Assembly (NCBI GenBank): GCA_020746105.1
Contig: CM036618.1
Coordinates: forward strand, 2,914,001-2,978,000
From: Trogon surrucura
Lineage: Eukaryota; Chordata; Aves; Trogoniformes; Trogonidae
Direction of reading: 5' to 3'
DNA: 64,000 nucleotides
The translations under genes were made by a program, and so were the position numbers. The notes below the pieces were generated by a model. The model worked only from the letters and a program-made list of their open reading frames with translations. It was not told the DNA's origin and ran no database searches. Positions 8,207 to 64,000 of the stretch are shown here, in pieces; positions within the stretch are counted from its first letter, which is position 1; each line of letters opens with the position of its first letter.

Positions 8207-8956
8207 TGCTCTGTGGTTCTACAATTCTGTCACCTCGACAGAGCCAGGACACTTGGCCTCTAACCCTTGTCCAAACTGTTTTCATATTTGTGCACTGGGG
8301 AACATCTCTCTTCATCTCAACCATCTGAAAGGCACATGGATAGTCTTCTCTGGTCTGGTGAATCGCTTCCTGGATGGGCATCCTGGATGGACATCTCTGG
8401 AGAGTAATTTGTTTTGGAGGTATATCAGCAATGGGCATTCACACAATGTGATTCACAGGCATGAGAGGACCTTCAGAGAGCTGAGATTTGGTTGGGTGAA
8501 TCCCACCTCTGCAACTCTTCTGCCTCACTATAACCTAAAAGCAGCTGAAGAGTGATTGTGACGCTTGGAAAACACTTGCTGAGGACCAGACCCTGCTTAA
8601 AACACCCCAAGAGATAGAAGTATCCTCCACTAAGCCTTCAACATGTCCCCAGCTCCCTACACAGCCTTGGGAGAGAAACAGCAAGAGGTGGACAAACCCT
8701 CGAGCCAGGTTGCTCAGACCTTGCCTTGGGTATGGGGAAAGGTTGTGCTGCTGGCCACCTCCAGAGACCAACCACTGGAGCATTTTATCCTCTTGCTATC
8801 CTGCCAAAATAGTCCCAAAGCATCCTAAAAGAGACCCTTCTCACTTGAAAATATTGTGTCCTTGATGCAGGACAGGAAGGATTCAAGCTCCTGGTTACGT
8901 GACTTTTAGGACTGGGACTGGCTTGAGTCCTAAAATCAGGATGTTTGCACTGAATG
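8207..8956. other. intergenic sequence, nothing recognised
   Basis: This may include a highly decayed continuation of the preceding CR1, but I cannot align it by eye. No gene is seen. Confidence 0.5.
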
Positions 8957-9046
8957 ATACAGAATCAGAGAATCAGAGAATGTTAGAATCATAGAATGTT
9001 AGGAGTTGGAAGGGACCTCTAGAGATCATCTAGGCCAAACCTCCAA
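8957..9046 (-). repeat. CR1 LINE, 3' end fragment
   Basis: It has several copies of the GAATCATAGAAT-type tail, then GGAGTTGGAAGGGACCTC, read on the minus strand. Only about 90 bp remain. It is the last CR1 before the transposon-free domain. Confidence 0.9.
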
Positions 9047-9419
9047 ATGTCTGTATGATGGACATCTTATGGATGAGGGTTTCTGGGGACGGTATAGGTG
9101 TGTTTATGTATCACAATGTGTAAGTTCACATGAGCAATACCATACAAATCTTTCTTGACGTTGGTAGTGATTAAAGAACTGTGATTTCACTGGGCATCAC
9201 GTCCCTGCTAAACCTCTGAGTGAGGTTCTGGATAAGTTTCTGAATGCTCTGCACCTCTTGAGCTCCTCTGACCAAACTCTTGCCTTACAACCACCTGATC
9301 TCCTTGAGGAGGTCAGGATCTGCCCCTAAGAGCCTTGGGAATCCCTCTTCTTTGCTCATCCTCTGACATAGAGGAGCCCTTGCTTCAGAGCAGCTCCCTA
9401 CCTGCGGTGTTTTTTGGAG
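9047..9419. other. intergenic sequence, nothing recognised
   Basis: This is the transition from CpG-poor to CpG-rich sequence. No gene, repeat or RNA was recognised. Confidence 0.5.
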
Positions 9420-12400
9420 CAAAGCGCGCCGAAAAATCTAGAGGTACCCAGCATACCATCGTAGCATCACTGCCCCTTCATCTCAGCGTGGCTCGGGACC
9501 GTACGCACGCACGGCCGTGCAAGCGCCGCAGTGATGGCACGTCCTCCATCGTCACCAGCTGCAGAGCAAATGCTGGACCCGCCTTCCAGCGCCGGGGTGG
9601 CAAGAGATGCGATTCGCCTCTCCTCCTGGCCTCCGCGTCGGGCAAAGCTCGTTGGCTTTGCTCGTTTGGTCGCTCATCGCCCGCGGCGAACCCAGTCACA
9701 CTGAGCATCTCAGCGGCGCTGATCTGTTGAGTCCCCACGGGCTTTAAGCGCAGATCCTCGTTGGGGTTAATCTAATTAAGCGGTCCAATTCTGGGCGTTT
9801 TGCGTGACAGGAAAAAAATATATATATTTTGAGGGGCTGCTTTGAGATGTCTTAATAGGAGAAATGGGATGGCCTCAGTGTGCCGAGCATCTTTAATGAT
9901 GCTGGGACGCCGCGTTCTGCTTCCCTATTCGACCCCTTAATTTCCAGCGGTGATGTCACCGAAAATCCCTATTTGTGGTCTCACTGGCGGTCTAAATTTA
10001 GAGGGTTTGAGATGATTTGTGACTCTGTTGCTGGGGGGAGGCGGGGAAGGGGGTGGTCGGGGAATGACATGTGAGTCCTGTGTCACCGAGGCTTGTTTGG
10101 GCTTTGAAGACGGTGGCGTGGTGCGCGGGGATGACGGCGCTGTCCAGGAAGAGCGAAGAGGGAAAAAAACCATGGGACTCTCTCCTTTTTATAGTCTAAG
10201 CAGTTTAATTGAGCTCGTTGCTTAGCCAAGACATTAAGAAAGGATTTTCCCCTCGAATCCTGATTAGATTTCCCAATAAAACGCCCACTTTGACTGCTGC
10301 TGCTAGGAGATATGTCGGTTCGCGGTTCAAGGAGGCACGCGGCGTAAAAATAAACTGAAAAAAGGAGCTGGATGCTGCGCGGATGCAGAGGGAAAGACCT
10401 TTCTGCATGGAGACCATCATCCTTCGCGGAGCTGGGTGGAGAGCAGAGCTGGAGGGGTCTGCGACTCGACAGAGAGCCGAGAAAGGAGGGAAATAGAGGA
10501 ATTTCCCAGATCTCCTTTCCCACCTCCCCGCCAGAGCATCTCGAGTCAAACCAGCGCCGCAGTCGCGAGCGAATCAGTCAGGGGGTGGGCGTGGGCGGGG
10601 AGGAATAAAAATGGCATAAAAATCGCAGATGGAAGGATCTGCAGACCCCGCTTCCCTGCTCCGTCCGGCCCTTTCCCTCGTCACAAGCGCCCAAGGGTCC
10701 CTCTCCCCAGCCCGGCCGGTCCCTTGCGGCGCGCGACCTTGAGGCCAGATGCCTGAAGGTTATCCGGGGGCATCGCCGTGTTAGTCAAACGTTCGCGCAA
10801 GCTGCTTAATTCTGCCTCCCCCCTCCTCTATAATCCAAGCGGGGATGGAGCCTGGCAGGTTTCTAGACGTTCTGTTTACATCGGGCTGCGGGTGGAGGGA
10901 GGAAGGAGGGGACAGGGCGGAGTGGGGGGGGGGAGGTGGAGAGCTGACGTGCTCAGAATAAAATTGTGCCACCTACTCCTTCATCCCTCGGTGCGAAAAA
11001 AAAAAAAATCGAACGCATCTGTCCACCCCCCTGCACCATTTCCCTACCCGGAGCGTCCACCCAGAAGAGGAGGGGCCGCGCCGCGGCTCATCTCGAAGGG
11101 GGCAAAGGTCTTTGAGAAACCCCCGGCCTGATTTATTCAGGGCAGAGCAATATTTCTCGGGATTAATATTAAAAAGAGCCTCCTGCTCCCTCCTCTCCAT
11201 CCCGCTGAGCTGAGCCCGAGGGAGGCAGACGGGCCCCTGCGGGGTACCAGGCCTTCCCGCCTTGGCGTGCGAGGTGATGGCATCTCTTCGTCCCAGCCGT
11301 TTCGCGAGTGACGAACGGGTTCTTTTATTTATTCGGGGTTATTTAGATCTCGTTTCTCTCTCCCGTGCCGCAGCTCGTTAACGGAAAACCCATTCCGCTG
11401 GCTCACCGGGGAAGGGCCGGGTGCTGCCAGAGCCGGCGGTGATGCAGAGGGATGCTCAGCACGTAGCATCACGGGGCAGGGATCTGCCTGCGGGATCCCA
11501 AGTAGAAGGCACCCCAAACCTCTTTTTCCTCCCCCCTCTCCCCTTTTATTCGTTAAACAGGAGCCCTCTGGCAGTTCAGACTCTCCTGGAGGTCTAGGAT
11601 GCGGAAGCGCCCACCCAGGGTTGAGCAGGCAACCGTGGGCTTCTTCCAAACGGAAAGGTCCAGGTTTTTTTTTTTATTCCGAGGCAGATTTTAATACTTA
11701 TCCCCCACCTGGTGCGGAGTGCGGGTTCTTCCCGGTGGGGGTCCGGGAGGGGGGCGTGTGTGGGGGGTCCTGCCTCCGTAAAGAGACGGCCGAGAAACCT
11801 CCGCGAACAAAGGAGAGGATGCGAAAGAGCTTTATTGGCACGGAGCGACCCGACGCGCTCCTTGCGGCATCCGCCCCAGCCGGGGTGTGAGCCCCGCAGA
11901 GGGAGGGGGCTGTCCCGAAATACCTGCAGCACCCCGGGGTGGGGTGCAAAGAGCCGTCCCAGGGACCCCGAGCCGCTGTCAACGCTCCCGCGGGCACCGT
12001 CCAGTAGGTGAGGGTCTTGCGCAGGGCTGCAAAGATAGATGGACACCCCCCCCACGCCATCGTCAAAGGGGCCCCCCCAGCCTGGGTGCAGCTCTGCAGC
12101 CGCTCCGCGGGGTAGGGGGGACCCGTCCCTTCCAGTAAGGCCTGGTCTTGCCCAGTGCGAAGCACCTGCTGGGAGCACTGGGGCGGTGATGGGGATGGAG
12201 GGATGCGGCTGCAAAGAGAAGGGATGGGAGGAGGGCAAGGAGGTGAAGGGCCCTGGAAGGGAGTGGGGCAAAGGGGTGACGATGGGATCCCAGGCACCTC
12301 TCTGGCTAAAAAGGCACAAAAAAAATTAAATAAAAAGAGAAGCGTGGACAAAAAAAAAAAAAGGAGGGGAAAAAATACAACAGCGGGGTGGCGGCGGAGC

Positions 12401-12909
12401 ATCTCCTGCCCTTGCGGGGCACCCGCTCCGCGTTAGGCCGCGGGGTCGCAGCATCCCTCCGTCCCCCTCCTCTCCTCGGGCTTTCCAGTTTCTTGAAATT
12501 TTATTTTATTTTCTGAATAGGTGCTGTTTCCCTCCCCTCCTCCTCCCTCGGCTCCTTGCACACACACACATACGCCTCTCGCCGGGGCTGTGTTAGGGGT
12601 ATAATGAGGCAGCCGATGGGTAATTGGGATCTTTTGTAGGGAGGATGTATGGCTGGGGCAGCTGCTGGGGGGGTGGAGGGATGTGGGGGGCAGCTGGAGG
12701 TGGGGGGGGGCAGCATTACCATACAAAGGGAACAAATGACATGTTTATCCCTCCAAGAGATTTACGCCCGGTCTCGCCCTGCAGACACAGCGCTATCCAC
12801 CCCCCCTCTCCCGCCTGCTTCTCCCCCAGCACTTTTGATTTAAATTATAAGGATTAAAAGGAGAGGAGGGGTGGAGGAGGAAGACACACAAATAGCCATC
12901 GGGAAAAAA

Positions 12910-12976
12910 AATTATATATATATACACACCTATATACACATATATACATACATATATATACATATATATAAAATAA
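12910..12976. repeat. AT/ACAT dinucleotide microsatellite
   Basis: Alternating TA with interspersed CA over about 65 bp. It lies some 570 bp downstream of miR-124-1 in the transcription direction and is probably length-variable between individuals. Confidence 0.9.
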
Positions 12977-13073
12977 AGCTTGTAAAAATAAAGATAAAAA
13001 GCGGCTTTGCCCCAGCATCCCCCCCTCCAGGGGAACAGCGTGAGCCCCGGTGACCCCAAGACCTGCCCTTGCT

Positions 13074-13140
13074 TTTAGCAGAGGAGAAAAAAAAAAACCA
13101 ACCACAACAACAACAAAACCACCCCAAAACCCAACCTAAA
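13074..13140. repeat. A-rich and AAC-rich low-complexity sequence
   Basis: A poly-A stretch is followed by AAC and AACC repeats. No reading frame or repeat family was recognised. Confidence 0.7.
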
Positions 13141-13440
13141 CCCCATCGTTCTGCGGAGAAAAGGAGAGAGAAAAAGCAAAAGCACAAAGCGGAGGCACCC
13201 GAGCAGCCCCGGGGGCAGCGGCCGCGGTCCCCCCCCGTCCTCCTCCGGGGCCCACCCGCGGGTCAGCCCCGAGTGACAGCTCCAGATTTCATTCCCCGGG
13301 GGGACTGTGCGCGCAGGGACGACCCCCCCACCCCTCGTTTTTTCCCCAGGACCACCCCCCCCCATCTCCTTCTTTTCCCCCCCGCCCCGCTCTGCGGGTG
13401 CCACCTGCGCCGGTGCGCAGCGCCGGGATGGAGGAAGGAT

Positions 13441-13500
13441 GGAGGAGGAGGGGGGGGGGGGTGTTGGTGGGTTTTTTAGGGGGATGGGGGGGGGGGTTTC
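13441..13500. repeat. poly-G and GGA-rich tract
   Basis: GGA repeats lead into G runs on the plus strand, ending about 40 bp short of the miR-124-1 3' flank. It follows a C-rich stretch at 13224-13390. It is simple sequence with no gene. Confidence 0.75.
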
Positions 13501-13557
13501 CGCGGGTGCGGAGAGCCGCGGAGCCGCCTCCGGCCTCGATGCTGGTCAGCCTCGTTC

Positions 13558-13579
13558 TTGGCATTCACCGCGTGCCTTA
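13558..13579 (-). ncRNA. MIR124-1: mature miR-124-3p
   Basis: This is the guide strand, 22 nt, read on the minus strand from 13579 down to 13558. It starts UAAGGCACGCGG and ends GUGAAUGCCAA. The seed (nucleotides 2-8, AAGGCAC) is intact, so the usual target repertoire should be kept. A one-base upstream start (UUAAGG) is also possible from the sequence. Confidence 0.96.
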
Positions 13580-13596
13580 ATTGTATGGACATTTAA

Positions 13597-13618
13597 ATCA
13601 AGGTCCGCTGTGAACACG
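13597..13618 (-). ncRNA. MIR124-1: miR-124-5p (passenger arm)
   Basis: This is the star strand, 22 nt, read from 13618 down to 13597. It begins CGUGUUCACAGCGG and ends CCUUGAU. It pairs with the 3p arm across the stem, leaving the internal mismatches typical of this hairpin. It is identical to the vertebrate miR-124-5p that I know. Confidence 0.93.
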
Positions 13619-13983
13619 GAGAGAGGGGCCTTTCCTCGGGAGGGAAAAAAAAAATAAAATAAGATATAATAAGGGGGGGGGAATTATTACTATTTTTAAA
13701 TCCAAAAAAAAAAAAAAAAAGAGGGGAGGAGGAGGAAGGAAGGAAGGCAGGGGAGGTAGGAGAGGGGCCGCGTTGCCCCCCACCGCCCCCGCGGAGCGCA
13801 GCCTTTGTTCTCCGCGCCCCGCGGAGGGCTCGGCGCGCCCTTCCCGATGGGCGGGGGGGGGGGTTTTGAGAGGAGGAGGAGGGGGGGGAGGATAAAATCC
13901 AATTTAACCCCCCCCTCCTCTCCCGCCCCTCTCGGATTTTTTTTTTTTTTTCCCCCTATAAAATAAAATAAAAACGCAAGGCT

Positions 13984-14056
13984 GGGGGGGGGGGGGGGGG
14001 GGAAAGGGGCTGCCCCGGGAAAGGGGCCGGGGGGGGGGGGAAAGGGGCTGCCCCGT
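13984..14056. repeat. G-rich minisatellite-like tract with 19-nt and 12-nt G runs
   Basis: A G run at 13984-14002 and another at 14029-14040 are separated and followed by near copies of AAAGGGGCTGCCCCG. The plus strand has obvious G-quadruplex potential, and the miR-124 host RNA would carry the C-rich complement. Length may be unreliable because such runs are error-prone in sequencing. Confidence 0.85.
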
Positions 14057-14124
14057 TACCTGCCCTCCGTCTCTGCCCGCCGCTGCCCGCTCTCTGCCGC
14101 CTGCCCCGAGCCCCGCCGCGCTGC

Positions 14125-14130
14125 TATAAA

Positions 14131-14161
<31 letters not shown>
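14125..14161 (+). repeat. TATAAA followed by a 31-nt poly-G run
   Basis: TATAAA at 14125-14130 is directly followed by an unbroken run of G from 14131 to 14161. More G-rich sequence follows to 14190. The TATA box-like hexamer points along the plus strand, opposite to miR-124-1, and is set in GC-rich sequence. It could mark an antisense or divergent start, or it could be chance. The run length is uncertain for technical reasons. Confidence 0.6.
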
Positions 14162-14162
<1 letters not shown>

Positions 14163-14220
14163 TGATGGGGGGGTGTTGGGGGGGGGGTTTGTCTTGGAGG
14201 AAGCGCAATAAAACCTTCCC

Positions 14221-14370
14221 CCGGTTCGCCTGCTGCAGTCAATCCTTTCGCTCGGATCCCAAGTGGTGCAAAAAAAAGAGGAGAGGGGCCCATCTGGCTT
14301 CTCATCAGCTTTGTCAAGTCTTGCATACGCTAAAATGCTAATGACCTAGATAGCTCATGCAAAATGCAGC
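14221..14370 (-). promoter_or_regulatory. candidate promoter or enhancer of the miR-124-1 host transcript
   Basis: This is a normal-complexity block of about 150 bp between poly-G sequence (to 14190) and purine or poly-C sequence (from 14370). It lies 600-750 bp upstream of the hairpin in the direction of transcription. Visible motifs are an E-box CATCTG at 14291-14296 (CAGATG on the minus strand, the type bound by NEUROD and NEUROG factors), a SOX-like CTTTGTC at 14309-14315, an octamer-like TTGCATA at 14321-14327 and an octamer-like ATGCAAAAT at 14357-14365. Such a combination suits a neural regulatory element. Function is inferred from motifs and position only. Confidence 0.4.
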
Positions 14371-14455
14371 AGAGAGAGAGAGGGAAGGGGAGGGAGCAGC
14401 GAGGGAGGGGAGGGGAGGGAGAGGGAAAGGCAGAGGGAGGGGGAGAGCCCGGGTG

Positions 14456-14912
14456 CATCACCCCCCCCCTCCATCACCCCCCCTTTTCTTTACCCCCCCC
14501 CCCCCAACTCCGGCCAATGCACCTTGGTAGGTACGAGCCGGGCTTTGATTTGAAAGGTCACCCGGGTACCACGGGGAGGGAGAGCACGGATAAACCACCC
14601 TGGCTTCACCCCCTCCTCTCCCCAACCCTCCAAGGGCGCGGAGGTTGCATATTCCCCCCCCCCCCCCCCCCCATTGCATCCTCCCCCGTGGGGTGCCGCG
14701 TTCCCCCCCCCTCCTCCGACCCCAACCCCAAACCGCCCTCTTCCTTCCCTCCCCCGCCAAAAAAAAAAAATAAAAGGAGCGAAGGAAATACCCCCTGCGG
14801 TGGTCCCTCCGTCCGGCGGTGCGGCAGCGCGTAATCCCGCGGAAGATGCTCGGGGAAACGGGAGGAGGGAATGGTCGTGTGCCTCCCCCCCCCCCGCCCC
14901 ATCCTTCCGCGC
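14456..14912. repeat. C-rich tracts (poly-C on the plus strand)
   Basis: C runs occur at 14461-14469, 14493-14505, 14654-14672 (19 nt), 14704-14711 and near 14885-14896. They oppose the G runs left of 14.2 kb, so base skew flips across the 14.2-14.45 kb block. No gene is visible here. Confidence 0.8.
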
Positions 14913-15839
14913 TATTGCGGAGGAAAGATGAAAATGCTCTCTCTCTAAAAAAAAAAAAAGTATAAAAAATCAAAAGGTTTGCGTGTGCGGGGTGCGCAGG
15001 GAGCGCGCAGCCGGGCGGGAGCTGCGCGGAGAGAGGAGCTGTCAGCGGCGCCTTCTCATTTCTCATTAGCCAGCCCTAATCTTGCTCGCTGTCCTCCTTC
15101 GGTGATGTTGATCCACTTTCCCTCCCTCCTCCCCCAGCCTCTCCCCCCTCCCCACACACACCTTTTTTTTTTTTTTTTTTAACCCGCACACCCCCTCCTC
15201 GTAAAGCATTATTCAGCCAAAAAAAATAAATAATAATAATAAAAAAAAATCACAGCTGCTGACTCCGTGCGCCGAAAACAAGGCGGCTGCAGCCCTCGCC
15301 CCCAGCCCCTCTCTCCCGCAGAGATGCTCCGGGTGTTGTCCGCAGAAATGCTGCCTTTTAAAACAAGGAGCGACCCGCGGGGGGAAAGAGCCTCCAGCCC
15401 TGCCCAGCACCCCCCCGCACCCTCCACCCGGGGTAGGGTTGGGGATGAGGATGGGGTTGGCGGGGGGGGGGGGGGGAAAACCCCTGCCCTGGCCACCCCC
15501 CAACCTCTCTTAGCCCCTCTGCGGAGAAAGGATGCTGCAGAGCTGGGCGCAGCTTTGCTAAGAGGAGGGAAAAAAAAAAAAAAAAAAAAGAAGAGAGAGA
15601 AAAAAAATTAAAATAAAAAAGGACCAGTTTTGGATGAGGCTTCGCTTTCTCTCCCCCCACCCCCCAATCCAACGCTGCTGGTTTCATGGCTACGCTACTG
15701 TAATTATGAATTCTTCTTCTTGTGACTTGTGTGTGTGTGCGAGGGGCTGGGGGGGGGTTTGTGTTTTGCGGCTGACATCACTGCAGTGGCGTGGAGCTGA
15801 CAGCTCCCAGGGCTGCGCTCGGGCTGCAGTGGCTCCTCA

Positions 15840-15990
15840 GCTTCTTTTTTTTTTTTTTTCTTTTAATTCTTTTTTTTTTTTTGCAGCCTCTGCTGACAAT
15901 TGCGAGGGAGAGAGGAGGTGGTGGTGGTGGTGGGGGAAATGATAATAATGAAATAAATAAAAACAAACAAACAACAACCCACAAACCCAA
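15840..15990. repeat. poly-T, GGT and AAC low-complexity cluster
   Basis: Two poly-T stretches (about 15846-15860 and 15871-15882) are followed by a GGT triplet repeat (about 15917-15934) and A/AAC-rich sequence to 15990. No gene is seen. Confidence 0.75.
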
Positions 15991-16114
15991 CAAACCCACC
16001 CCGGCTCATTGCGTTCAAGGTGAATTTCAAGGAGAAGAGCGTGCTTTTTGTTTACGGTGAGGTCGTGGCGTACACCGGCGATGAGAACCACGCCGTGGCT
16101 GTCTGTACATCTCT

Positions 16115-16196
16115 ATCCAGGGCTATCTATACGTCTATACATCTGTATCCAGGGATATCTATACATCTATACATCTCCATCCGGGGATATCTACAC
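16115..16196. repeat. 32-bp minisatellite, about 2.6 copies
   Basis: A 32-bp unit beginning ATCCAGGGCTATCTATAC is repeated at 16115-16146 and 16147-16178, with a partial third copy at 16179-16196. Copies differ by a few substitutions. It lies about 2.5 kb upstream of miR-124-1. Confidence 0.9.
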
Positions 16197-18067
16197 AGCC
16201 CCAGCATCGCTGCTCCTTCCCGAGTGCCCCGTCAGGCCCCGTAACCTTGGCGGGGCGCTGCGCGGCGTAACCCGGACTAAACCCCAACCAGAGCAGGCTC
16301 CAAAGGCAGGAAATCCTTTATCACTCGCCGGGTGATTTCGTATCAAGGGCATGTGCCTACTCCCGGGATCTCTTTGCACGAGCCACGGCTACCGCGCCGT
16401 TGAGATCATTTCAGCGCCTCATCGCACCTATATTCCTTCCCATTGCGCGAAGACAAACATCTTCTCCCTTTTTTTTCTTTTCTTTTTTTTTTTTTATTCC
16501 CCCAACCGAGGCCTAGAAGCTGCTGAGAAAAAAAAAAAAAAGGCTCAGGGAAGCACGAGTCCATGGTTTGTACCCCGAGCACAGACCGTGTGTGTGTATG
16601 TTCAGAGCCAGGCAGAAGCATCCGGCTCTGAATAAGCACAAGAGCCCCGTGCACATTGATCCCCCCCTCCCTGACGCGCTTAAAGTCTTCGTGCCGAGCC
16701 GGCTGAGAGCCGTGGCCCTTTCTTCTTAGCGCTGTTTAACAGTAGTACCATTTTGTTTCCATTACGTTAATGACATTTCATCTCATGCACCAAATCGGAG
16801 GAGTTTTCAAGGAAACGCTGGAAATCAGACGTCGAAAATTGGTCAGGAGAGTCAGCACAAAAATCTCCCTGCCTGCCCTTTACCACGCCACCTCCGTCGA
16901 AAAAAAAAAATAGATGGCAGATTATTATTTGCTTAAAAGAAAGAAAGAAAAGCAAACCCTATTTACCCTGAATGAGCAACTTCTCCTATACCTCCTTTAA
17001 ACCGTTTGCAATTCAAATCAGAAATCGTATAGTGCAGATTTTAAAGGTCTCGCTGACAGAAGCCGTGAGCCAGAGCATCCCTCTGAGACCGCCGCGCTCC
17101 AAACCGCAGCTGGAGCCGGGGGCCGCGCGAGCATCAGCCCCTGCCCCAGCAGGCAGCTGCCCGATGGGGACCGAGGTCGCGGTGTCACATTATTTATCCC
17201 TTCCTTGGTTTTCTGTCTGATTTATAGAGAGCTGAGCTATTTGACTTAAAGATAAATATACGTGTGCCATGGGAGGTAACTTGGTTGGAGGGGAAAAGCT
17301 GCAGTTTCGGTATCCCTCCAAAATTACTGCTATATATATATTATTTTTTATAAGTAACAGTGTTTTATCTCGCCATAACGTCTTCCTTTGGAGGATCCCA
17401 AAGCGCAAGGGTCAATTTGAAAGAAGTAAATGCAATTTCCCCCTTTTACACAAGTGGGGAAACTGAGGATCAGTGGCCTCATCCTTTGTGGTTTCTCATC
17501 AAGAGAGATGCCTACAGAGCCCAGTCGTGGAGACGGAGCCACTGCTGCAAACCACGGGAGCAGCTGGAGGTGCAAACCCAGACCCGGGCTCGTGTCGCTG
17601 AGCAAAATATCTTTGCAGAACTGACACGGGGATTTTCAGCCTGAGTTTCAGTTTGGGGAGGGGGCGTGGATGCCGCGCCGGATATAAACCTGCGCTGGGT
17701 TAATGCTCAAAAAGATCTTTCACAGGGTCTTTTCTAGTTCACACTCTTGCCCGCTCCCCGTCACGTTTACCGGGGTTATTTAAAGCCCTGCTCCAACCCG
17801 CCCGAAAATACATTACGCTCCTTTAAAAACATAAACCCCGGGACTTAACCGGTGATCCATTCCCTCCCTCTGCACTATTAGCACATTAAGAAATTAAACG
17901 ATAAAACTCCTAAAGATCCGATTGACCGGAATCGCGCCGCTCCATATGGCACGGCATATGTGGCCGGCCCTCCCGCGCGCCCCGTCCGGGATCGCCGGGA
18001 TGCGCGCTCGAGCAGCCTGGGATGGGAAAAAGGGTTTCGAGGCAAATTCGGATGGATTTAGAGCTGC

Positions 18068-18092
18068 TTTTTTTTTTTTTTTTTTTTTTTTA
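18068..18092. repeat. poly-T tract
   Basis: A run of about 24 T residues. Similar T runs occur at 15162-15180, 20151-20171 and 22130-22146. They have no CR1 or SINE body attached and are probably simple expansions. Confidence 0.85.
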
Positions 18093-18618
18093 ACTACGAA
18101 ATTTCACTTCTCTGCTCCACCTCCAGCACCAGAGGAAAAACCGTAGAGGTGATGTATGTCCCTAAATAAGGATGCGGAGTTCTGCTTTGCTGGAGGAGGT
18201 CAGGTGAGGTGATTTAACGCTTTGCAGAATGGCTCCTAAAAGATGATGGGCTTAAGAGAACAACCCCAAGCCCTGAACCTGCATCCCTACAACCAGGTTA
18301 ACCTCTGGAGCCCATGGCAGAGGTGACTTGGGGAAATGGATGTTGAGCACCCAAGCCAGGGAGAGGGGAAAAGTCTTTTTTTTCCTTTCCATGATAAATG
18401 GCATCGCAGTAAACAATAGGCTCTGGGCCTGGCTGGGAGCTTTCCCCAAGTGAAGACTGATTTCTAAAAGCCTTATGAGCTTCTTTCACCGTTTTGGCTA
18501 AAGATAAATCTTTTTTTTTTTATTTTTTCCTAGGGCTCACCTGAATTTCTGAGTGCTGGGAGGTGCAAGGGGGTGAAGATTGCGGATCGCTCACCGAGCT
18601 CAGCGCCATGCCTGGCAC

Positions 18619-18641
18619 TTCAGAGACGGACGGACAGAGCC
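18619..18641 (+). promoter_or_regulatory. candidate non-canonical RE1 (REST) site
   Basis: The right half GGACAGAGCC at 18632-18641 matches the RE1 half-site consensus GGACAGNGCC completely. A TTCAG lies at 18619-18623, but the rest of the left half is poor and the spacing is 2 nt longer than in a canonical RE1. REST represses miR-124 genes in non-neural cells through nearby RE1 elements (established), so a site 5 kb upstream would make sense. The match alone is weak. Confidence 0.25.
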
Positions 18642-20460
18642 CGTATCAAAAAACTTTAACTCTGAACACGACCTAAACCAGCTTAGTGGGGATAGACATG
18701 AAGGAAGGGATTAACTCCCCTCGCCCCCCAACCAAGAGCAACAAATCCCATTAACTGCCCATCTCCAGGAGGGGAAACTCTGCATCCGCTGCTCCCCAAA
18801 ATAGGGACCCGCTGCATTTATTGATTTACCTCAAATAAAAACCCCAGCCCGTGGCAGCGACTCCTGCAGAAGCTTTGTGCTGAGAATTAACGATGGCTTC
18901 TGGGGAAAGCATCGCTGCGAACCAGCCGGACCACGACATTCTGGCGCGTCGGCTGCTCCCCTCCTAAATAGTTAATTCCTGCAAGAAGGTTAAAAACGTC
19001 TCGGGGATCAGACGCAGTCACCTATAGCTCCCCTTCCTGCCGGGTTTCTCGGTAGAGAACGGGGAGCAAAATTCGGCAAGAGGGGGATGAAAAATCTCTC
19101 CCTGCCTGAAAAACCCAGATTGTTCCCAACCTGTAATTTGCTTCAAACCAGGTGAATTACTCCCCGAAACGATAGGTAGGAATAGCACAAAATATAGTGG
19201 AGGGGGGGAAAGAAGCTGTTAGAGGCAACAGCAGAAGAAAAACTCCGTTATCTATGGTAACAGTCTGGAGACTGATTTATCGAGCGTATAAATAGAGCAG
19301 GAGAAGCTTTCCCGACGTAGACGCTCCGATGGGCGAACCAAGAGTTTCTTCGACCCTCCCTTTCAGGATCAGCTTAATCCGAACATTTCCCCTCGAGGCA
19401 GCGGCTCCCGCCCCGCGACGTGCGACATCGCACCCATTTCCCTAAGAAACGGGCCCAAACTCCGTCTTCTCAAGGTTGTGCTGGGCAGGGGATGTGAGCC
19501 CGGTGGTCTCCCCCTTCCCCGTGCAGGCATTTCATCTTCATCCCCCCCCCACGACCCCTCCAAACCAGCCCTTTCTAAGCCCCCAAATATTTTTGCTTTG
19601 TTTTGCCACCGGGTTTCGTGGCGGATGAAAGCTGATGGTGCAGGTGCTCATTCCTTCCCACCGTTTTAATAATATTATTTCATCGGGAGGGGGGAAAAAA
19701 CCCAACCCCAAACACTCTGAATTTCTTGTATTTCTCTGATTTATATCTGAATTTTCCTCGGAGGGAGGGAAAAAAAACCATCTAAAGGTCTCTCAAGCCG
19801 AGGGTTTAAAATAATGCGTCGTATTTAAGCGAATCGTGTTGGAGTAAGCACAGAGGAAGAAAGGAAAGATGTAGGGCTGGGCTGGAGCCTCGTTTAAGCA
19901 TTTTGAGTGATATAACATAATAAAACGGGGGGTAGCAGCGAGGTTTCAACGCTCTTTCTCAGATCTACCCGGGCTGTCGGTATTTCGGGGAGCCTCAAAC
20001 CCTTTTGTACCCGCCGTCGCATTATTATTATTTTTTTTTTATGAGTGTTCTCAAAGCAGATTAAACCTGAAAACTCTCCTCGCTGGAATTCGCTATTTCT
20101 TTCCCGAGCCTACGGCAGCAACGGCCTTGAAATCCTGCGGCTTCGTGGCTTTTTTTTTTTTTTTTTTTTTTATTTAATACGGTGCCATCTCCCGGCATAT
20201 ACATTATTATCTCGGCTCCTATTGTTCTATAGGTCAGCGCGCGAGCCCCGCGTCAGGTAGAAGCACTTTCCTGGTCCCTTTTGTGCCGTACGCCACGAAA
20301 ATAAATGTCTGCCTAGTGTGTGTTTCCCGCACGCAGATTCAACTGGCGTTGAAGAGCAGATGGTTCAGGTAGCGGATTTAAATCTGTCCTAGCCAAGCCC
20401 TAGTCCTGACCTATATTGCAGGACGAGTGCCAGGCATACCTTTGCTTTCCCCTATATCGA

Positions 20461-20482
20461 TTATATATATATATATATTCTA
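20461..20482. repeat. TA dinucleotide repeat
   Basis: A short uninterrupted TA run in AT-rich sequence. There is no associated element. Confidence 0.85.
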
Positions 20483-21803
20483 TATTTTGTTTTTCTCTCC
20501 TCCATCAGCTGTCAGCAAATAAAAAAAAAAAGGAGCAAAAAGAAAAAAGCAATACCTTCATGACTGATATTTACACAAGTAAATATTTTTTATGTATATA
20601 CAGCCAGCACGAAATGATTTTTAATGAATTATCTGTGAGTGAAAACAGTTCTGTAAATCAGCAGGGCTGCAGGCAATTTTTACCATATGTCGGCTTGCAT
20701 TTGTATCACAGAATTTGTTTTCGCGGGGACGAGATATCTGCTTTTTTCTTTCGTGGCTTATGTGCTAGAATTAGGATCTACATAACTCAGTGCATTTAAG
20801 CAAGAATATTGTCTGGTTTTATTGGACTATTATTAATGCGAGGGCGAACGGATCCTATACTGCGCTGCACACAGCAAGGCAGGCAGTAAGGGCTGCGTGC
20901 TAGCAGGGAGAAGCCCAAATGATATTAAAATCCCTCTTTTTAAAAATTTTTTCCTTTTTTTCTTCCCCATAAAGCTTTCTTCCAGCCTTTCTCCAGGAGG
21001 TTTCTTAGGCAAAATCAGCAAAAAAAAAAATAAATATGGAAAATACAAGCTGCGCTCAGCTCACGTCCCTCCCTTCCCCCTCCGTAAAATAGCATCTGAA
21101 TTCCTAATGGCAATAAGGATGAATTACTTAATGTATGGAGGGGGTGCTCAGGCTAAAAACACGCTCCGTAATAAGGCTGAGCTTTATTATCACTCCGTTT
21201 GCCCATAGAAGTGTGAAGCTCGTCAGGCACGGCAGAAGCCGGAGCCCGAAATGAGAAATCGCCACCGTAACACCCTGCAAAATGCAGGTTGAAACTTCTG
21301 ACTGATCCAGGTTAGGAATAAATCGCTCTCCTAAATTCGGTTAGAAAAAGCAAGATGGAAAGTAACCGGGCGGGGAGAGGAGGACGGGCGAAAAACCAAA
21401 CTGAAATTGCTATGGAGATCTCTCGTTCCTGAGCTCGGGGGATTTTATTCCTGAGCTGGTAACGGCGAGAAAATGTTTCAATGATCTTTCGAAAAATATT
21501 GACGCAGTGAAAAACCTAAAGCCGGACCCTCCGTCGTTTAACCGGGGCTGAATCCAGGTGGGAGTGGGGGACACATATGTGACACGACGTGACTTCACGT
21601 GGGTCGTGCCAGCGCTGGGAGGGAGGAGAAGCCTCCGGGAGCCGTGGTCCTCGTCGTACCCTGAACAAAGAGCGGCTGCCCCTGGACAGGTCCTGTCTAT
21701 CGAGTGATTCGCCGCTGACTTCAACAGGAGCAGGACGCTTTCCATTTGTCCCCGAGAATATTTCTGGAGATGCTGCCTCCAGCAGGAAGAGGGGAGAGAA
21801 ATT

Positions 21804-21915
21804 AGATATATATATATATATATATTTAAAAATTATATTATATATATATATAAAAAATATGTATATATAACACATATTTAATATATATAATATATATTTA
21901 ATATATATATATAAG
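21804..21915. repeat. 110-bp TA-rich microsatellite
   Basis: Interrupted TA dinucleotide arrays extend over about 110 bp, with short A and T runs between them. They lie in otherwise CpG-containing sequence. The array is likely polymorphic. Confidence 0.9.
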
Positions 21916-22149
21916 AGAATGAGAATAATACTTTTTTTCTTTCTAAAATCCCAGTTCTTCCCTTTCTGCCCCCGTTTCCATCCTCTCCCGCAAAGGATGC
22001 GGCCACGACTCGACTCGATCATGACGTAACGTTTAGATGAAAAATGCCGTAACCGTTTGTCACCAAAATGCCCCGTGTACCGAGACAGTGTGAGCCTGAC
22101 AGGGCTGATGAAGAACGGCACTTAAGCTAATTTTTTTTTTTTTTTCTGC

Positions 22150-22510
22150 TAAACTCTGTTGTGCACTATGCAAATCTGATTGCGAAAGCGGGACATTATC
22201 AACACTTTAACGCTAGTTAACTTTCGGAGATGATGCTCGGAGCAATCGACATAAACTCGGCACGCAGCAACTTAAATAACAAAAATGTTTCGCCAGCCAG
22301 CGTAACGCCGGGTGATGGATCGTGCCGCGTGCCTGCGAACAAATTAAAAATACATCGCTCCACATCGCTCGTGGCAGCAGCGAAGAGGAACCGGTTTCAA
22401 ACCGGAATAACAATAATAGCAATTATGTACGAATCTGGCCTGAATCATCTCGCCCCACTCGTGGTTATTGATTATTAATAGGATAATATTTGCACGAGCC
22501 CGCCTTAGAG
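22150..22510. promoter_or_regulatory. candidate regulatory element with octamer and Grainyhead-type sites
   Basis: This is unique, CpG-retaining but AT-balanced sequence. A perfect POU octamer ATGCAAAT is at 22168-22175. At 22391-22405 the inverted repeat CCGGTTT-C-AAACCGG includes the full Grainyhead-like palindrome AACCGGTT (22389-22396). TTATTGATTATTAAT near 22462-22476 resembles homeodomain sites. The composition is that of conserved non-coding DNA, but conservation was not tested. Confidence 0.35.
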
Positions 22511-22540
22511 CGCATCCCTCATCCCGTACAGAAAAACCAA

Positions 22541-23697
22541 CCGCGGTCCTTCGGTGGGCTCTTGCCAACTCTTAGATTTATCAAGTTCCTCAACAGCATG
22601 TTTGTTTTTTCTATTTCCCCCCAAAAAGGTCCACACGATCATGTGGGAATCGCAGCTTTCCTTTCCTTTTTATTTTTTTCCCTGGGGAAGACACACTTGT
22701 TTTTATCCATCAGGGCTGTGCACCGCAAACCCTAAAGGTCATCCTCCCAGAGAAAGGAAGAATAACCTGCAATTTGTTATTTTTAAAAGCTCGCGGTGTT
22801 TGGGAGAGGCTCCCCATGGAAAGGTGAACGGATTTAGAGGAGAGGATGGGGCATGTGTCTCCCTCGTTAGCATTCGCACCATTCCCTGCGACGACGGGGA
22901 ATGATAATAATACCTTAAAACCTTCCAGAAAAAATAGGATTTAGGGTGCGAACTGAGGAGGAAAAAAACCAACAAAACAAACCCACCAACGCCGCGCTGC
23001 AGCCGAACCCATGGTGAAAAGTTGAAGCTGAATTTCCTGCGGCGGTGTTATTGATCGGGATGTTAACAACCGGGGCGCGCGGGCAGCGGAGGGAGGTTGG
23101 CCAGCAGCCAGCTGCCGCTGCTGGTCCAGGCCTGGAAGGACGCCTGCTCAGATACGGCAAAACCAACTCCCTGGTCCAGGTCTTCTTCAAAAACATTAAT
23201 TAATACTCGCGCGCTGAGTGAAGTGCAGAGAATGAGCTGTGTTTCGCATCCGCAGAGTTGGGGTGTGGGGAGGGGAAGCACCTTAGAGAGGGTGGCTCAG
23301 GGAATCCACCCAGAATTGAGCCTCATCTTCACAGTCTCTTTGACCCTGCCTTGTCTCAGTCTTCTCCTTAAAAAAACCACTGGCAATCTTAACCAGTCTA
23401 TTAATGAAACGCAACAATTCAAGGCAAATATTGTAGATTGGTGGACCAAACAACATCTCTCCCAAAATTCGGAAGATGTTCCAACAGGCACAGTTGATGC
23501 AGGGACCGGAGGGATGGGCAGAGCACCAGCCTGCCATGGGGGGTCTGGCAAAGGAAATTCTTAGACTCAAGGAAAAGCCTTCGAGAGATGTCTGGCTGCA
23601 GAGATGCAATAAAGTGCAGGTGTTTTTCTTTTGTTCTGAGACAAGAGAAGGCATTTTATGGGTGAAGAAACCAAGGAGGACCCTACTGGGTTTGGTG
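22541..23697. other. intergenic sequence, right edge of the transposon-free domain
   Basis: CpG density falls off across this stretch, with a last GC-rich patch near 23065-23130. No gene or repeat was recognised. Confidence 0.5.
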
Positions 23698-43375: not shown

Positions 43376-43975
43376 ATCTATTCTATTCTATTCTATTCTA
43401 TTCTATTCTATTCTATTCTATTCTATTCTATTCTATTCTATTCTATTCTATTCTATTCTATTCTATTCTCTCTATATAATATATATTAATATTTTATATA
43501 TTTTTAAAGATTTTAAAAATTTTTCTCCCAATTTTATATATTTTATTTTATTTTATTTTATTTTATTCTATTCTGTTCTATTCTATTCTATTCTATTCTA
43601 TTCTATTCTATTCTATTCTATATACATAATATATACGTTATATATTTATATTTTATTTTTTAAAGATGTTTTAAAAATTTTTCTCTAATTTTTATATACT
43701 CCTATTCTATTCTATTCTATTCTATTCTATTCTATTCTATTCTATTCTATTCTATTCTATTCTATTCTATTCTCTCTATATAATATATATTACATATTAA
43801 TATTTTATATTTTTAAAGAATTCTTAAAAAATTTCTCCAAATTTGATATACTCCATTCTAGTCTAGTCTAGTCTAGTCTAGTCTATTCTATATATATAAT
43901 ATATTATATATATTACATATTTTTTCTATTTTTATTTTTTTTTTTATTTTCTCCAAATGTTATATATATAACCGG
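43376..43975. repeat. higher-order (ATTCT)n array with AT-rich spacers
   Basis: Four pentanucleotide blocks start near 43377, 43541, 43702 and 43854, a spacing of 164, 161 and 152 bp. Each is followed by a related AT-rich spacer of about 70 bp with TATATAATATAT, TTTTTAAAGA and TTTTCTCCAAATTTTATATA-like parts. The first three blocks are (TATTC)n of about 90, 80 and 70 bp. The fourth is short and has drifted to (AGTCT)n. So the pentamer and spacer amplified together. Confidence 0.93.
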
Positions 43976-48430: not shown

Positions 48431-48828
48431 CTTCCCTTCCCTTCCCTTCCCTTCCCTTCCCTTCCCTTCCCTTCCCTTCCCTTCCCTTCCCTTCCCTTCC
48501 CTTCCCTTCCCTTCCCTTCCCTTCCCTTCCCTTCCCTTCCCTTCCCTTCCCTTCCCTTCCCTTCCCTTCCCTTCCCTTCCCTTCCCTTCCCTTCCCTTCC
48601 CTTCCCTTCCCCTTCCCCTTCCCCCCTTCCCCCTTCCCCCTTTCCCCTTCCCCCTTCCCCTTTCCCCTTCGCCCTTCCCCCTTCCCCCTTCCCCCTTTCC
48701 CCTTCCCCCTTCCCCCTTTCCCCTTTCCCCTTCCCCTTTCCCCTTTCTCCTTCCCCTTTCTCCTTTCCCCTTCCCCTTTCCTTTTCCCCCTTCTCTTTCC
48801 TTTTTCCCCTTTCCCCTTCCCATCTCCC
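48431..48828. repeat. (CTTCC)n polypyrimidine array, about 400 bp
   Basis: About 36 perfect CTTCC units (48431-48610) are followed by imperfect CCCCTT, CCCTTT and TTTCC variants to 48828. The plus strand is almost pure pyrimidine and the minus strand pure purine, which favours triplex (H-DNA) and, on the minus strand, G-rich structures. Long frames across it are artefacts of the repeat. Confidence 0.96.
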
Positions 48829-62945: not shown

Positions 62946-64000
62946 ACACCCTTACGGCAGGGACACTCTGTGGTTTATTGCCCCTAGGAAACACTGTGCA
63001 GAACGGCCTGGAGGAGCCGTGTGGTGGGATGTGTGGGGATGTGGTAGGATCGTGGGGAGCCGGTGCAGCAACCTGTTAAAGCTCCAGGGTGGGAGGATGG
63101 TGACCAGGTTCCAGGGATCAGCATGGCTTGATGCGTGGAGCCGTGTCCGTGAGTCCAGCACAGACCCATCTGTCCTCCTCCACCAGAGGGCTGAGCCCCT
63201 TGGGGAAGGGGACAGGGGAGTCACCCCCCAGGATTGCCCACACCGCTGGCGGTGACACAGCCCTGCGGATGGCTCGGTGCCCTTCAGGCCTTGGTGGAGC
63301 TGGTTTGGGGCTCAGCGATGCTTTTGCACCTTTTTGGTGACACTTCCTGGTGCCCCCTATGCTCCCTCCCCATCCCACGCAGGCACGGAGAGGATAAACA
63401 GCTTGTAATGGAAAAACTGAGGGAAAACAAGTCAGCAAAGCTGCTACAGCATCAACTCCCACACCCCCTTCCTTGCCCCCACCCGTTATTCCTTCCTTCC
63501 TTCCCCGTCCCCACCTCCCTCCCCAAAGCCGTCTGATCCCCACAACAGGCCTGATCCCACCCTCCTGCCCCAGCACTGGCTGCGGGAGCCTTGAGCTTTC
63601 TGCCGGTTTTTGGGTCCCTGGGCAGGGAGACGCTGCTGGGATGGGGCTGATTGGCCCCCAGTGCCCCCAGGGAGGAAACCAGGGGCCTCATGGCATCTTC
63701 CAGGAGCCTCTTCTCAGGCCATGCCATGGTGCCAGCATGGTGCCACGGAGTCCCTCTTGGCTTGGACACGAGGTGGGGCAGAGTGGCTGGGTGCCCTCAT
63801 CCATGAGGACATCAGTGTCCAGGCTGACGTCATTGCCTGGGGAGATGAGACAACCATGGGGACATCGTTGCTTGGTGGGTAGCCCCTGGCCAGGCCTCGG
63901 CCATGCTTGATGGGCTGTGCTGTCTCTGCTGCCCCTGGGAGTGCTGGCAGCTGGGGAGGAATGGAATGGTGGCAGCACTGGGGGGGCCGTGCATGCTGCT
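62946..64000. other. GC-rich sequence to the window end, nothing recognised
   Basis: GC content rises, with several overlapping frames on both strands. None shows a domain or a convincing codon pattern. This could be the approach to another gene or more decayed LINE sequence. I cannot decide. Confidence 0.4.

Follow-up and report, generated by a model that had tools for sequence, protein, structure and literature searches.

The minus strand of a 64-kb stretch of the Trogon surrucura genome carries a hairpin that is almost certainly this bird's orthologue of miR-124-1 and is presumably transcribed and processed as a miR-124 precursor. The window, by which we mean the whole 64-kb stretch (C2:2914001-2978000), belongs to a genome searched over 1.166 Gb in 164 contigs. 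The sequence, the fold, the paralog type and the neighbours were each established for the window locus itself. The hairpin is intact and almost identical to human miR-124-1, and the result is therefore the correct identification of a known gene rather than a discovery. Its interest is that an intact, deeply conserved RNA gene, invisible to ORF-based annotation, was recognised from raw sequence together with the right paralog. The features of the locus are listed below in window coordinates.

13547-13631, minus strand: mir-124-1 precursor hairpin in the 85-nt frame of hsa-mir-124-1, from Rfam, folding and the human alignment
13597-13618, minus strand: miR-124-5p arm, 22 nt, the sole exact match in 64 kb
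13580-13596, minus strand: 124-1-type terminal loop bearing UUUAAAUGU on its 5' side, the same as the hsa-mir-124-1 loop (PMC11172088)
13560-13579, minus strand: mature miR-124-3p arm, 20 nt, the sole exact match in 64 kb
13552 and 13626, minus strand: the two bases (hairpin positions 6 and 80) of a basal-stem C-A mismatch that is U-G in human, from the comparison of folds
13538-13544, minus strand: two overlapping CNNC motifs, starting 16 and 19 nt past the 3p end
9311-19701, no strand: CpG-rich domain around the hairpin, containing 9 island intervals (out of 29 in the window) that cover 8110 of 10391 bases
9045-23696, no strand: stretch around the hairpin free of interspersed repeats, the largest of 105 such gaps in 264 kb

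The whole window was scanned with the covariance models of Rfam release 15, using the gathering score as cut-off. RF00239 (mir-124) was the sole family above that score, with a match on the minus strand at 13553-13625 (81.9 bits against a cut-off of 49, E 1.6e-17) that covers the model at full length (1-72 of 72). Even with as many as 3 mismatches tolerated, the 3p 20-mer and the 5p 22-mer have a single place each in the 64 kb, and both are exact there, just as the first-pass annotation had read them; neither arm appeared in any of 100 shuffled sequences. The mature 3p sequence, UAAGGCACGCGGUGAAUGCC, sits on the 3' arm of the hairpin, as it does in the mir-124 family. The hairpin of 85 nt has a folding energy of -30.5 kcal/mol, compared with a shuffle mean of -19.17 (sd 2.99, n=200), which corresponds to a z of -3.79, and 0 of 200 shuffles were as stable. 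CNNC is a pri-miRNA processing motif, and the one at 16 nt past the 3p end is also present in a second mir-124 copy, on contig C20. The letters of the 3p arm equal those of the zebra finch miR-124 probe given in PMC3118218. The Rfam search and the folding, both suggested beforehand, thus bear out the claim of an intact miR-124-1 precursor on the minus strand at 13547-13631.

The plus strand of the same segment has a folding energy of -33.0 kcal/mol (z -3.53), a little below that of the sense strand, and matches the mir-124 model at 30.6 bits, below the cut-off of 49. These values would suit a plus strand that also yields a hairpin microRNA, an antisense miR-124. However, near-palindromic hairpins fold on either strand anyway, and we regard such a product as very unlikely.

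As for the paralog, the window hairpin and hsa-mir-124-1 (MI0000443, as printed in PMC11172088) are identical at 82 of 85 bases without gaps, and the arms and the loop are unchanged. The alignment score was 155 for hsa-mir-124-1 versus 124 and 126, both gapped, for hsa-mir-124-2 and hsa-mir-124-3. The locus-specific loop of the window hairpin, UUUAAAUGUCCAU, is that of the printed hsa-mir-124-1 and is unlike that of the C20 copy. The human gene, with LINC00599 as its host, likewise lies on the minus strand and is divergent from MSRA. The earlier assignment to the 124-1 type was based on the loop; this assignment holds, and the ungapped alignment and a divergent MSRA on the same contig now stand beside it.

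There is at least one mir-124 place in this genome besides the window, on C20, as judged from the best 60 of 65690 candidates of the family search with the window's own copy left out. This copy (C20:2603078-2603149) scores 85.2 bits with Rfam, and among the matches listed for the exact 3p pattern genome-wide, again without the window's own, C20 was the only place. The C20 copy has the same arms as the window hairpin. It differs in a loop that is one A shorter and in its basal stem, which reads AAGAGAGG versus AAGAACGAGG in the 3' flank and basal stem of the window hairpin. Besides short matches that look like chance, the two loci have a single match in common, 74 bases long and 97 per cent identical. 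By its sequence, we take the C20 copy to be of the 124-3 type. In chicken, the mir-124 family gene gga-mir-124a-2 is described as the orthologue of MIR124-3 (PMC7686352) and is a paralog of the window gene; it is probably orthologous to the C20 copy.

To the right of the hairpin lies MSRA. Its exon 1 was found at C2:3001847-3002005 on the plus strand, 74 kb from the hairpin and opposite to it in strand, where a tblastn search with human MSRA gave a match of 56 residues beginning at Met1, with 39 per cent identity (E 7.6e-5). The frame begins with the start methionine, contains the segments RMGDSAS and EEALPGR and then runs into a GTAGGG splice donor. The PMSR family (PF01625) has seven matches in the genome, four on C2 and three on C27. 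The four on C2 are PMSR-domain exons in order on the plus strand (C2:3161543-3331325), which places MSRA beside the hairpin as expected of miR-124-1. Those at C27:4169044-4170578 on the minus strand (L024, L026) make up a second, compact MsrA-like gene, with three PMSR stretches in 1.5 kb (profile positions 5-48, 43-81 and 115-152).

To the left lies a KIF13B-like gene. Starting 92 kb left of the hairpin, a kinesin-3 motor domain is spread in order over eight stretches of the minus strand between C2:2835640 and 2820830, and a further exon was found at C2:2806504-2806292. Against PDB, KIF13B ranked first for two of the motor stretches (7e-37 versus 3.6e-24 for KIF1A in one, 1.9e-36 versus 5.5e-20 for the next family in the other). 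KIF13A was absent among the best 60 of 132 and the best 60 of 140 PDB matches, which does not separate KIF13B from KIF13A. Among the protein relatives of the further exon, 1 of 60 carried PF12423 (KIF1B domain), and Pfam gave DUF4600 alone for the exon itself, below threshold. The best PDB match thus agrees with the KIF13B side of the rodent order for miR-124-1 (PMC2632650).

The first-pass annotation had expected TNKS and MSRA on either side. The MSRA side was correct, whereas TNKS was found elsewhere, its place on the left being taken by the KIF13B-like gene. With E values up to 1 accepted, the TNKS C-terminus had no match in the 314 kb surrounding the hairpin, about 163 kb of which lie to the left. 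Genome-wide it gave five matches: three exons on C7 at 91-97 per cent, which are those of TNKS, and two exons on C8 at 82-88 per cent, taken as TNKS2. The human order is TNKS - MIR124-1 - MSRA, which we do not consider defining for miR-124-1.

The loops of the window and C20 hairpins differ by a single base. The mature arms are identical in all three paralogs, as the C20 copy agrees, and hence undiagnostic. On these two points the window hairpin could be taken for a mir-124 gene of the 124-2 or 124-3 group. However, its loop is that of 124-1, it aligns with hsa-mir-124-1 without gaps, and it is the C20 copy, not the window copy, that carries the basal AAGAGAGG of 124-3. The neighbours, MSRA on the right and a KIF13B-like gene on the left as for rodent 124-1 (PMC2632650), largely refute such an assignment and leave it extremely improbable.

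The order in the window genome is accordingly KIF13B-like (minus), miR-124-1 (minus) and MSRA (plus). PMC2632650 describes miR-124-1 as intergenic, with MSRA and Kif13b as its flanks and a human region without Kif13b; the mouse locus of mmu-mir-124a-1 and Rncr3 shares both neighbours with the window locus. KIF13B and MSRA are described as syntenic in several mammals, with the pair broken up in human (PMC11169010). It follows that the window order agrees with that of rodents, and since the window genome and rodents share KIF13B - miR-124-1 - MSRA, this is likely the older amniote order, as far as one bird genome and the two articles (PMC2632650, PMC11169010) can indicate. The window locus therefore differs from that of hsa-mir-124-1 in that TNKS is not adjacent and a KIF13B-like gene, moved away in human, is (PMC11169010). 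The failed TNKS side of the synteny check is informative, as it points to the human rearrangement. The expectation of TNKS fits the rearranged human chromosome only.

All three differences from hsa-mir-124-1 as printed lie in the basal stem: U to C at position 6, U to C at position 78 and G to A at position 80. The human U-G pair 6/80 is thereby lost to a C-A mismatch, while 8 of the 9 predicted outer pairs of the human hairpin are kept; the earlier statement that pairing in the outer stem survives the substitutions holds for those eight and fails for pair 6/80. The window fold is 4.8 kcal/mol weaker than the human one (-30.5 versus -35.3 kcal/mol), which counts against reading the hairpin as a working miR-124-1 gene. 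It is conceivable, though we doubt it, that the C-A mismatch, which lies eight bases below where the 5p arm starts, has become fixed in birds and alters the Drosha cutting or yield of pri-miR-124-1, and that birds lean more than mammals on the C20 copy of the 124-3 type. That the lost pair and the weaker fold mark a silent relic, a sequence that Trogon surrucura retains but does not transcribe or has ceased to process, is hardly credible, as the arms and loop are unchanged from human while the surrounding DNA shows no conservation with the C20 locus outside the 74-base match, and as the hairpin lies in a CpG-rich, repeat-free setting.

The miR-124-1 hairpin was said to be the lone recognisable functional gene in 64 kb. 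This stands within the tests made, which were partial: one Rfam match at the gathering score, no Pfam match at E 0.01 in the 20 ORFs scanned of 184 in the window (stop-to-stop, at least 90 aa), and no exon in the window for human MSRA (best E 0.38) or the TNKS C-terminus (best E 1.8). With the Rfam limit relaxed to E 1, the window has 28 matches, of which mir-124 alone reaches the gathering score. The other 27, including mir-297, mir-3099 and a GC-rich cluster at 13.9-14.5 kb, were taken as chance on simple-sequence DNA. At the gathering score no family was found in any of the ten 10-kb pieces of the right flank. The ten 10-kb pieces next to the window on the left gave one partial tRNA match (L002:9221-9279, minus strand, 38.8 bits, model 8-63 of 71).

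The hairpin lies within a CpG island (13031-14131), and human miR-124-1 is likewise placed inside one by PMC2632650. Upstream, the islands at 16031-16821, 16941-17321 and 17481-18161 cover the distances from 2.4 to 4.5 kb. For mammals, the same article puts the start sites and the CpG islands some 3.5 to 3.8 kb upstream (PMC2632650), a distance that the upstream islands fit weakly and not specifically. The match is weak because the window has 29 such intervals.

In the miR-124 pathway, the pri-miRNA is cut by Drosha/DGCR8 and then by Dicer, the 3p strand enters Argonaute, and progenitor and non-neuronal mRNAs are repressed. On the strength of this established knowledge, the window gene would be transcribed and processed, and would find its targets, in the same manner. 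A minus-strand primary transcript would probably start in the CpG-rich 16031-18161, 2.4 to 4.5 kb upstream, Drosha/DGCR8 would cut at the hairpin base and Dicer at the loop, and the 3p strand, with the seed AAGGCAC, would be loaded into Argonaute and may repress non-neuronal and progenitor mRNAs in neurons. In mouse, RNCR3 is pri-miR-124-1, and its loss is reported to cut the miR-124 level of the brain by 60-80 per cent (PMC6401137) and to harm cones (PMC6562649). The REST/SCP1 pathway is named as the point of action of miR-124 in the spinal cord of the chick (PMC6401137). In zebra finch, 111170 of 111628 miR-124 reads came from brain, not locus-specific (PMC3585881), and miR-124 drops after song exposure (PMC3118218). 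Bird miR-124 reads cannot be assigned to one paralog because the mature sequence is common to the paralogs.

The absence of two signals looked for around the hairpin counts against its reading as a working miR-124-1 gene. A REST/RE1 site was rejected, since the best match to the consensus was 14 of 19 bases, no better than chance, with 12 of 20 shuffles also reaching 14. AATAAA was absent at 3.2-3.3 kb downstream of the hairpin, the mammalian position given in PMC2632650. An ATTAAA does lie 3338 nt downstream; it carries little weight because AATAAA and ATTAAA together number 16 in 8 kb.

None of the 23 repeat intervals of at least 80 bp in the window, defined by copies elsewhere in 264 kb, falls inside 8209-23695. 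With uniform placement, a repeat-free gap of 14.65 kb has a probability of 0.006 at the hairpin and of 0.076 anywhere, which are modest statistics. The repeats look like CR1 elements, whose reverse transcriptase several of the ORF fragments seem to represent. A 0.9-kb stretch at 63112-63983 of the window recurs once in inverted orientation, with 87 per cent identity, some 159 kb further left (C2:2818482-2819365). Pentanucleotide arrays occupy 43377-43773 and 48431-48821 of the window, with about 79 copies of TCTAT at 72 per cent, and CTTCC with longer-period variants.
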